Below, piece after piece: positions 22,907-27,898 of a DNA stretch of 37,030 nucleotides; position 1 is the first letter of the stretch, and the number at the start of each line of letters is the position of its first letter. The stretch is from Acidobacteriota bacterium (GTDB lineage: Bacteria > Acidobacteriota > Terriglobia > Acidiferrales > UBA7541), in contig JABDEK010000039.1 of the NCBI GenBank assembly GCA_013287135.1, forward strand, positions 1 to 37,030, read 5' to 3'. The notes under the pieces are model-generated. The model was not told where the DNA came from, did no database searches, and saw only the letters and a list, made by a program, of their open reading frames with translations. Made by a program: the position numbers and the translations under genes.

Positions 22907-22935
22907 TTGACCGCGTCCTCCGCATCAGCTATTAT
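22907..22935 (+). promoter_or_regulatory. Strong promoter before the tRNA-fMet 5' fragment (likely the original tRNA promoter)
   Basis: TTGACC (22907-22912) and TATTAT (22930-22935) are separated by exactly 17 nt and match consensus at 5 of 6 positions each. The -10 box ends 5 nt before the first base of the tRNA fragment, the normal position for a tRNA promoter. Confidence 0.65.
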
Positions 22936-22940
22936 GTTTT

Positions 22941-22980
22941 CGCGGGGTGGAGCAGCCTGGTAGCTCGTCGGGCTCATAAC
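22941..22980 (+). pseudogene. Orphan 5' half of initiator tRNA-fMet (truncated)
   Basis: These 40 nt are identical to bases 1-40 of the complete tRNA-fMet at 27766-27805: acceptor 5' strand, D arm and anticodon arm through the CAT anticodon. Identity stops after TCATAAC; there is no 3' anticodon strand, T arm or CCA. Flanking sequence on both sides differs from the intact copy. A truncated tRNA or one side of an insertion junction is the simplest reading. Confidence 0.9.
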
Positions 22981-23345
22981 GCGCCAAACGTCAACCGGCT
23001 CTGCCTTAACATTTCTTCTCAGCCGCAGAACCCTCTTGAAACGGGGTATTCGGGGCACTTAACGGGCACCTGAGAATCAGGCGTTGCTGTTTGCGCTTGG
23101 ATATATCGGCACGCTCGACCGTCTGCTTAGAAGGTGCGCAATACAAACCTTTAAGTGCCGCTTCTGGTGTCGCTTACGAGGGAATGCCTCATTTATCCCG
23201 CTCTTGAATTGGACCGAAGTTGGAGCGAAACTGCTGAGGTGAACCCTCGTAGTAACAGGGATGGCAACATTGCGACCGTTATTTTCGAGGCGAGTTAAAT
23301 TTCATTTTCGGTTAACCCCACGATGTGATCGCGTCCGTGATCTGG
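22981..23345. other. Non-coding stretch after the tRNA fragment
   Basis: No convincing gene, terminator or RNA was recognised. Small open frames on both strands lack ribosome sites and recognisable sequence. This is probably the left edge of the inserted segment. Confidence 0.4.
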
Positions 23346-24360
23346 TCAATGTGCGCCCACGGTCTGCACAACGACGGAGGTCAGCGTCCCGGGTTGGCTC
23401 TCCGGCAGAAACCGGGTTGGGTAGGCGTGCCACGTCTGGAAGACCGTATCATCGGGTTTTGTGTCGGGATTACTTGTTACAGTCCGATATCGTTCGATGG
23501 CGTGGTTCGCCCACTCAAGATCGCTTTTATCAATGGAACTGCCATCGAAGATCACGCCGTACGAGATACCAGCATCGTGTAACTGCCTGCGCCATTCCAC
23601 CAGCTGCGGCTTCCAATTGTCATACCAGATAATATCGGCTTGCATGAATGATAAAGCGTTCGCCAGTCTGTTGCTTAAACTGCCGCGCGAATTCGAGATA
23701 TTCCGCCAACCAGCAGACAGTGTGGTTGTTAACAGGCTCTACATCGCCAAATTGAATGGCAGGAAACCTCGCCTTCAGGATTGCAATTTGCGGGGCGATA
23801 TTTTGAACCAGTTGTTGCATTGTATAGTTACAGGCGGCCGGCTTGTTCAAGATATTGAAATGACCAAAGGCGACCGGTGAATCGAAAGCAACGTACTCGA
23901 TGTTGCCGCCCAATCTGGATACACGATCAGCTGCCGTCTGGATCACCGCCTTGGTCGTGTAACCGGGTACGCCATTGCCGCATTGAGCCGTTGTAGCCAT
24001 GATCTCGGCTGCAAAGGCCAGAGCGATGTGACGGTGGCCTAAATCCTTAATGACCGCGGCTAGCTGTTCGTCGGTCGATCGATGCAGAAATTGAGTTGAC
24101 ACCTTGAAAATCTGGATCGCTGAAGCTGCTCTCGGCCATGGCGCATTTGGCTGGAACAACTCCATGAAATCGTTAGCGGCGCCTGGGCGTGACGCCGTCA
24201 TGCCGATCCTTTGACGGTCCGCCGCTACGACCGGATCAATGCCGGCCAACCAGACCCGCTTTGGTTGCCCCTGAGCAATTACTTGCGCTGGAATGGCACC
24301 TTGGAGCGCTGTCGTAACAGACACAAGCACGGCAACCTGTAAGATCAATTTCAATTTCAC
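23346..24360 (-). pseudogene. Secreted protein gene of unknown family, split by a one-base frameshift
   Basis: The reading frame starts at GTG 24360 (GGAG 7 nt upstream) with a signal peptide (VKLKLILQVAVLVSVTTALQ). It continues to about 23640, where it shifts and soon stops at 23620. The next frame continues directly to 23346 as ADIIWYDNWKPQLVEWRRQL. Removing one A from GCAAGCC near 23640 joins the two into about 337 residues with the uninterrupted junction RFIIHAADIIWYDNW. The sequence (HIALAFAAEIM, RLGGNIEYVAFDSP, WYDNW, YGVIFDGSS) suggests an (alpha/beta) barrel, perhaps glycosidase-like, but I do not recognise the family. The frameshift could be real decay or a sequencing error. It is cotranscribed or adjacent to the beta-helix gene on the same strand. 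Confidence 0.65.
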
Positions 24361-24522
24361 AATATATCTCCGGATTCTTGGCTGTGAGTGGCTACCAGAA
24401 CCCCACTTCTGTAAGTTCAATTGCTTTTCCTCCGAAGATTTTGACCCTTAACCTAAATCGAGATCGCAACGTCAACCGAAACTACAACAAGGAGGCCATG
24501 CGGATCGCCCCCATAGGGCTGC

Positions 24523-27255: not shown

Positions 27256-27731
27256 CCAGCCCTCCGGCCTGATGTTCGTAACAATCTGTGGAACGGATCT
27301 CCCCTATAGACAGCAACTTCCGTCAAGGAGCGTGCCTTAGAGTTCCTAGACCAGGCTGAGCAGGAAAAAATTCCCGTCGACAAACAAAAAAGATGAATCT
27401 CGCAGAAATATCTCGCCGCCCCGGCAAAAATGGAACAATTGCGCTCGCCCGCGACTCAGAACAAGTTGGAACAGCGCAACTCTTTCTGGGAGCCGAGGTT
27501 TGAGAAACTGCACGAGCGCATTTCGTTTCTTTCGCGCTCAAACAATCGTCCAAACTGCGAGCGAGCATGATTACTTCAGCGCCACGGAATAATAGTAAGG
27601 TAGGGGTGACCGGGAGGTTTCTCGCCATCGTTGTCTCGCATCAACCTTCGCTGATTCGTGCTCGGTGGCATGGCACCCAGTAAAAGGAGCGACCATATGG
27701 CGTCGGTCTGATTGTGATCGTCGGGCTAATA
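27256..27731. other. Non-coding stretch before tRNA-fMet
   Basis: Nothing convincing was recognised in this stretch. A minus-strand frame at 27323-27628 has no ribosome site and no recognisable sequence. The region separates the beta-helix gene start from the tRNA promoter and may hold the promoter of the beta-helix gene. Confidence 0.4.
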
Positions 27732-27760
27732 TTGCAGAAGTGCAGCAAGTCGCGTAGTAT
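27732..27760 (+). promoter_or_regulatory. Candidate promoter of intact tRNA-fMet
   Basis: TTGCAG (27732-27737) and TAGTAT (27755-27760) are 17 nt apart, ending 5 nt before the tRNA. The spacing equals that at 22907-22935 but both boxes are weaker (3 and 4 of 6 consensus matches). Confidence 0.45.
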
Positions 27761-27765
27761 GAATG

Positions 27766-27842
27766 CGCGGGGTGGAGCAGCCTGGTAGCTCGTCGGGCTC
27801 ATAACCCGGAGGTCGTTGGTTCAAATCCAACCCCCGCAACCA
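27766..27842 (+). tRNA. Initiator tRNA-fMet (CAT anticodon)
   Basis: The 77-nt gene has C at position 1 facing A in the acceptor stem (the unpaired C1-A72 of initiators), three G-C pairs in the anticodon stem (GGG before CTCATAA, CCC after) and an encoded CCA end. The anticodon CAT is at 27800-27802. These features separate it from elongator tRNA-Met and tRNA-Ile2. It carries initiator Met for translation start. Its first 40 nt are duplicated at 22941-22980. Confidence 0.97.
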
Positions 27843-27861
27843 TTCCAAGTATTTCGATTAC

Positions 27862-27898
27862 AAAGGGTTGCTGCTCCACGGCAACCCTTTCTTTTTTT
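27862..27898 (+). terminator. Intrinsic terminator of tRNA-fMet
   Basis: AAAGGGTTGC pairs perfectly with GCAACCCTTT across a 9-nt loop, followed by CTTTTTTT. It lies 19 nt after the tRNA. Confidence 0.9.

Follow-up and report, generated by a model that had tools for sequence, protein, structure and literature searches.

An interrupted initiator tRNA gene in Acidobacteriota points to integrative elements that supply a new promoter and 5' half

The window, i.e. the whole 37,030-nucleotide stretch of DNA analysed here (contig JABDEK010000039.1, assembly GCA_013287135.1 of a soil Acidobacteriota bacterium), holds tRNA-fMet in two parts, a promoter with the first 40 nt of the gene (22907-22980) and, after 4.8 kb, a second promoter with the complete gene (27766-27842). 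Features are on the forward strand unless stated otherwise. The upstream promoter, TTGACC-17-TATTAT (22907-22935), is sigma-70-type and matches 10 of 12 consensus bases; it is regarded as the host-type promoter of the original gene, the same kind being found before the uninterrupted fMet genes of relatives. By itself, such a match proves nothing, as a scan of 22850-28000 returned two sites as good as this one, compared to a mean of 2.9 in shuffles. Host promoters at six loci score 10, 8, 10, 10, 8 and 9 of 12, where at least the G128 score stems from a mis-picked site. Downstream follows the abandoned 5' half of the gene (22941-22980, tRNA positions 1-40) with 0/40 mismatches to 27766-27805; the match extends to tRNA position 43 with one mismatch, a longer repeat (22930-22983 and 27755-27808) has 91% identity, and the start-to-start distance between stub and complete gene is 4825 nt. 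The break is located 3 nt past the anticodon, one base beyond the anticodon loop. Here CTCATAAC (22973-22980), i.e. the anticodon loop and one stem base, is the point where host and element meet, a junction common to the family alignments, and strand exchange likely takes place within it.

The complete gene is preceded by TTGCAG-17-TAGTAT (27732-27760), which matches 7 of 12 consensus bases by our own count, and is followed by a terminator-like hairpin (27862-27890) detected in a sequence scan. ARAGORN, and Rfam at gathering scores, call only this complete tRNA and leave the stub uncalled. Judging from the loci of relatives, its 5' half presumably stems from the element, and its 3' half from the original site or whatever lies to the right. 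A like promoter with the 17-nt spacer, matched by pattern only, is present in 11/11 right ends compared, in agreement with an element-borne origin. The earlier note, made from the window alone, had described a near-consensus promoter leading into exactly the first 40 nt of tRNA-fMet, a complete tRNA with the same 40 nt 4.8 kb downstream and a good terminator behind it, all of which we recover; the downstream promoter, which it called weaker and unrelated, is indeed weaker, but not arbitrary given its recurrence. A check for other fMet genes, which it had also proposed, returned no further copy or fragment beyond the two places at E 0.001 in the window's genome (assembly 79% complete, 194 contigs), and a single fMet copy was found in each genome examined closely (G000 and G021). 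We note that a sequence resembling the fMet anticodon arm (TCGTCGGGCTAATA), of unexplained origin, lies in or near the right end of some copies (window 27718-27731, L055 4675-4702).

Between the two parts, the approximately 110 nt after CTCATAAC (22981-23089) form the conserved left end of an element, defined by profile match and detected in 10/89 family genomes (the search returned 11; the G115 match there is a right end, and a G115 left end is present on another contig). The IMG/VR element L126 matches the left-end profile at E 1.3e-18. Within the left end lies a pair of arm-like repeats, GGGCACTTAAC/GGGCACCTGA (23053-23073), the exact 21-mer of which also occurs in G007, G126, G128 and L126; these are putative integrase arm sites, presumably recognised by the L126 integrase. 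The cargo, on the reverse strand, comprises an apparently broken gene (23346-24420) without Pfam match, in which two ORFs, 23346-23645 and 23620-24420, overlap in different frames, and a 910-aa protein (24523-27255) with a right-handed beta-helix region (PF13229, E 2.5e-11). ORF, Pfam and homology searches revealed no integrase gene between 22981 and 27765. Arm-type repeats flank both sides in G009, G007 and L126 and are found at the left end only in the window, where no right-hand arm pair is recognisable, the best match having 10/21 mismatches compared to a mean of 9.3 in 300 shuffles. The core-to-arm distance in ten aligned left ends is 88 in six, 87 in one, 98 in L126 and 75 in the window, with the arm of the tenth (G115) beyond the aligned stretch, so that the window left end is short of 13 nt relative to the family spacing. 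Having neither integrase nor right-hand arm repeats, the window copy is, as judged from its sequence, probably an immobile relative of the element family, either inserted in trans by an L126-like integrase or having lost its own integrase later.

Comparisons to relatives reveal both occupied and empty sites. In seven fetched genomes (G001, G002, G003, G004, G015, G019 and G033) an uninterrupted fMet gene begins 73-126 nt beyond the point where the match to a pilin-like gene stops; in the other fetched genomes the two genes are not neighbours. In G009 and G018, the place after the pilin-like gene is taken by a 5' fragment, which in G009 is followed by a 5.8-kb element and then the complete tRNA, the G018 contig ending before any complete tRNA. 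In G106 the pilin gene is followed by a decayed fragment and a left end, with the right end and the complete tRNA approximately 16 kb further on. The insertion event is directly visible in the pair of L126 (occupied) and G002 (empty), as the first 98 nt of L126 (59 upstream and 39 of the tRNA) and its last 98 nt (76 of the tRNA and 22 downstream, the latter being all that was available for comparison to the right of the tRNA) are identical to the empty site. The insert is thus 9636 minus 157, or approximately 9.48 kb, with the 39-nt tRNA 5' half duplicated. Between stub and complete copy, 4/40 positions differ in G009 and 0/40 in the window. At the window's own locus, the upstream neighbour of the stub is a GH15 gene, which is not beside fMet in the other loci examined; the pilin gene of the same genome is located on a separate contig (C63) with other sequence after it, and no empty-site relative of this locus was found among the loci examined.

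Based on these comparisons, we consider it very likely that an integrative element entered fMet, leaving the host promoter and a 40-nt stub behind and joining its own promoter and 5' half to the host 3' half. A tyrosine recombinase would integrate the element at fMet, the host would retain its own promoter together with a disused stub of 40 nt, and the start tRNA, fused from element 5' half and host 3' half, would from then on be expressed from the element promoter. This is largely what the earlier note had proposed, i.e. entry of DNA into the original fMet gene that left promoter and 5' half behind and supplied a new 5' half, and it is borne out by the L126/G002 pair and the G009 and G018 stubs. 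The uninterrupted tRNA-fMet behind a host-type promoter that it predicted for relatives is seen in the seven genomes above, at the level of the family and not of the window's own locus. It had also held that both copies at unrelated loci, or a dispersed repeat, would speak against insertion; the fragment does recur, but across genomes as an element end, and it occurs once in the window's genome.

Counting left ends, right ends or arm repeats together, the element family is represented in 19/89 family genomes and 5/13 genera of this Acidobacteriota family, with right ends beyond the tRNA itself (rows reaching query position 41 or less) in 11/89 and arm repeats at up to 2 mismatches in 13/89. 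The sequence after the 5' fragment is conserved in 4/13 genera. In an alignment of fMet copies (the 30 best loci from a search of 101 genomes, plus fetched regions), the sequence directly after the 5' fragment is common to the window, G009, G018, G007, G038 and G046, and a non-host promoter is common to the complete tRNAs of the window, G009, G011, G008 and G021 and a copy in G007 cut by the contig end. G008, G011 and G021 have a complete tRNA behind an element-type promoter, but the right side only was found there, and neither a 5' fragment nor a left end; the G021 genome (99% complete) has a single fMet match, which is that copy. Several members are decayed, mainly in genus g5. An fMet 5' half with a non-standard next base was found in 8/399 genomes sampled from the class, all 8 belonging to this family. 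In two further genomes, G118 and G107 (left ends of L101 and L103), resemblance to fMet ahead of the left end is confined to the vicinity of the junction, perhaps reflecting other target sites or decay.

A number of further arrangements were observed. In G126 (L104 1-160) the left end is followed within approximately 100 nt by the apparent 3' part of another tRNA. In genus g5 (L105, L111, L112, L123 and L124) a decayed right end with 5' half lies approximately 100 nt before a complete fMet with yet another promoter, and at L057 323-574 the right end with its 5' half is repeated several times in a row, in decayed form, resembling scars of repeated insertion. Nearly the same element sequence occurs in a Verrucomicrobia MAG (L121) and an Acidobacteria MAG (L122), which is probably a binning error rather than transfer. 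Like L121 one of nine genome-collection matches to the left-end junction, the beta-proteobacterial L116 was rejected as chance, since it has no left end and by eye lies inside a RuvC-like gene. In IMG/VR, 0 contigs carry the window-type left junction, 0 carry one right-end promoter string and 1 carries the arm repeat.

That contig, L126, was found through the exact arm repeat and represents an element of approximately 9.5 kb inside fMet with capsid genes and a tyrosine integrase. It encodes a replication-initiation-like protein, a terminase small subunit (PF05119), a prohead protease (PF04586), a capsid protein (PF05065) and the integrase (PF00589), with no large terminase, portal or tail families among 10 ORFs searched per library. 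The integrase gene is located at the right end and runs towards the tRNA, with the right arm pair inside its 3' end and its stop codon providing the opening bases of the new tRNA promoter's -10 box; the ORF is whole in the integrated state. In IMG/VR, L126 itself is the only match among relatives of its integrase.

Relatives of this integrase outside IMG/VR are informative with respect to polarity. Decayed pieces aside, 11 of 30 loci with such relatives, including the seven best, have an fMet gene or 3' fragment directly past the integrase 3' end; these 11 integrases point at the tRNA from its 3' side, and the far fragment, where seen, is a 3' half. As the far 3' fragments start at tRNA position 28-33 (8 loci read), 5'- and 3'-type elements meet in the anticodon loop. 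In G011 the element-type promoter is present on one side of the tRNA and a PF00589 integrase lies 155 nt away on the other; the integrase side also has, at a distance of 33 kb, a 3' fragment that matches at 100%. An IS-like transposase gene (by eye) separates pilin gene and promoter in G011, and no 5' fragment was found between them; nearly the whole G011 fMet gene was probably supplied by two elements. In a tree of 38 integrase rows (36 different, two being short decayed pieces), the three 5'-type rows group together (100/100) and join 13/16 3'-type rows at 89/91 only, with long branches, the remaining three (L061, L124 and L151) falling elsewhere. The sequences suggest a polarity switch within one integrase lineage. 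Hijacking of XerCD was considered, since the core contains CATAA, which we take to be an XerCD motif, and dropped, as by eye no XerD-like half-site is apparent.

Insertion into fMet has to be weighed against three readings that attribute the window arrangement to something else. Truncation of one copy after a tRNA-fMet duplication or gene conversion, without any site-specific element, finds a parallel in G042 and G032, where the full gene is preceded, at approximately 450-500 nt, by an additional fMet 5' half behind a like promoter (L058 7383-7957, L059 6481-7001), which has the look of a local duplication, not of this element. In the window family, however, each of the two promoters is conserved and distinct from the other, the post-fragment sequence is conserved across genera as given above, and the same flanks occur with and without insert; already disfavoured by the occupied/empty pair, duplication is extremely improbable. 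We regard a false join of two unrelated contigs at the 43-nt repeat as just as improbable. The assembly is a draft metagenome, and such repeats do break contigs (one contig in G007 stops, and one in G038 starts, within a tRNA copy), but element-specific sequence extends beyond the repeat at both ends and has the same order in other assemblies. All genomes are drafts with the 5' half as a repeat, and some joins could be chimeric, including that of the near-identical cassette in two genera described below. To the right of the window tRNA, 28776-31108 encodes a second integrase (PF00589), a 353-aa neighbour and a weak HTH_17 protein; no 3' fMet fragment was found in the window's assembly. With its gene (28776-29822) only 934 nt from the tRNA, this integrase might be thought to drive the 4.8-kb segment, yet it lies outside the segment, does not match the L126 integrase, reaches only E 0.05 against a relative, and is placed unlike the L126 integrase, which abuts the 5' side of the tRNA. 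Such a role for it is very unlikely.

Insertion therefore remains the preferred reading, and a variant of it, rather than an alternative to it, concerns the origin of the copies without integrase. The 4.8-kb segment may be the decayed remnant of a once autonomous, integrase-bearing element, which we consider evenly poised. G021 has a decayed integrase of the L126 kind beside the complete tRNA, and G025 has decayed integrase pieces followed by an arm-like repeat, with no tRNA in the stretch read (identity of the pieces 50-85%); possible last integrase codons remain in some other copies (16-18 residues at 75-78%, weak E 0.02-0.2), and in the window the right end is without arm pair and a cargo gene looks broken. 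A search of the window and G009 cassettes, and of those in G007 as far as fetched, yielded no integrase, yet these cassettes keep the element promoter. Against decay, one integrase-less right end (approximately 100 nt at 86-88%) is common to three cassettes whose cargo is unrelated (one in G009, two in G007), and one cassette is nearly identical in G009 and G038 (99.9% over 2,372 nt and 100% over another 175, to the G038 contig end), the hosts being of different genera with pilin proteins 61% identical; together these suggest movement without an own integrase. Apart from the ends, a few short matches and the G009/G038 pair, cargo DNA is unrelated between elements. Tandem arrangement is seen twice in G007, a left end there meeting a right end and its 5' half directly; one of the two junctions spans an assembly gap. 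The integrase-less set thus fits cargo units mobilised in trans, as far as sequence comparison goes, and decay of integrase-bearing elements explains part of it. We tentatively put forward, with the doubts outweighing the support, a two-part system in which capsid-encoding elements would provide the fMet integrase and move integrase-less cargo with the same arms in trans, stacking it in tandem at the single initiator tRNA. Each newcomer would then bring promoter and 5' half, the start tRNA would always be run by the innermost element, and in genomes such as G011, with a 3'-restoring element on the other side, nearly the whole initiator tRNA would come from two mobile elements.

The closest counterparts within the data are classical fMet elements that restore the 3' half (G011, G034, G040 and others), which use the same tRNA with junctions overlapping in the anticodon loop and have related integrases (26-38% identity) pointing at the tRNA. 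They are the mirror image, in which host promoter and 5' half are kept, the 3' half is supplied and a 3' fragment lies at the far end. The window has a complete tRNA and a displaced 5' fragment in direct orientation, on the correct side for a tDNA-targeted integrative element. According to the Islander study (PMC4383910), 159 of 3919 islands have a 5' tDNA fragment and 3760 a 3' fragment, and the 5'-fragment islands likewise consist of a tRNA gene, a displaced 5' fragment upstream, the island between them and an anticodon-centred junction. Compared to these as described there, the target here is the initiator tRNA and several copies are integrase-less with common ends; the Islander integrase filter would reject the window copy for lack of an integrase. 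A review (PMC8371274) states that the original promoter is retained by restored bacterial tRNAs in all but very few cases, and that pTN3-like archaeal integrases use a tRNA 5' half, with the tRNA receiving the integrase promoter and the integrase gene being split. An attB made of the tRNA 5' half and a promoter that reaches the restored tRNA from the element side are shared with the pTN3-like case (PMC8371274), whereas here the tRNA promoter overlaps the end of an integrase gene that is whole in L126, and there the gene is split and the integrase promoter expresses the tRNA. The earlier note had called 5' restoration unusual; it is uncommon by these counts (PMC4383910), but not unheard of (PMC4383910, PMC8371274).

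What appears new here is the lineage itself, together with its use of the initiator tRNA as target and its copies that lack an integrase or stand in tandem. Capsid-forming phage satellites (cf-PICI) are small integrated elements with capsid genes and no tail genes. By its gene content, L126 resembles these and other phage satellites in size (approximately 9.5 kb), integrase, replication-initiation-like protein, terminase small subunit, prohead protease and capsid, and has capsid genes and no tail genes among the 10 ORFs searched per library; the window copy, in contrast, has none of these satellite-type genes. Integron gene cassettes are integrase-less cargo units with common ends, sometimes in tandem, as are the copies described here; unlike them, the ends here are tRNA-derived with flanking repeats, and complete units measure 4.7-16 kb. 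Promoter replacement by integrated elements is known at dusA and prfC. Insertion into the 5' end of dusA is reportedly described in one study (PMC4482086), and tRNA-fMet is said to be mentioned in two papers on Sinorhizobium prophages. Our literature search, most of it at title level, returned no paper recognised as describing this element family, and we make no claim that 5'-restoring fMet elements are absent from print.

The initiator tRNA is essential, and with promoter and 5' half replaced the host would depend on element DNA to start every protein, while the element promoter may alter the dosage of the start tRNA. Related integrases attacking the same anticodon loop from opposite sides would make the polarity of integration at tRNA sites testable, and the integrase-less copies provide a test case for trans-mobilised cargo at a tRNA. 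Scanned for fMet 5' halves followed by a non-standard base, IMG/VR returned 16 stretches, of which by eye 13 look like tRNA variants and 3 are fragments (L126, L186 and L188). In L188 (IMGVR_UViG_2788500073_000001, 2097-3554), a 5' fMet fragment precedes a complete fMet by approximately 55 nt, and an integrase homologue is located downstream. In L186 (IMGVR_UViG_3300032046_000093, approximately 3623-3660), a strong-looking promoter and a tRNA-fMet 5' half are flanked by an integrase-like gene on one side and, by eye, a long phage-like gene on the other, possibly representing an independent phage with a 5'-restoring attP.
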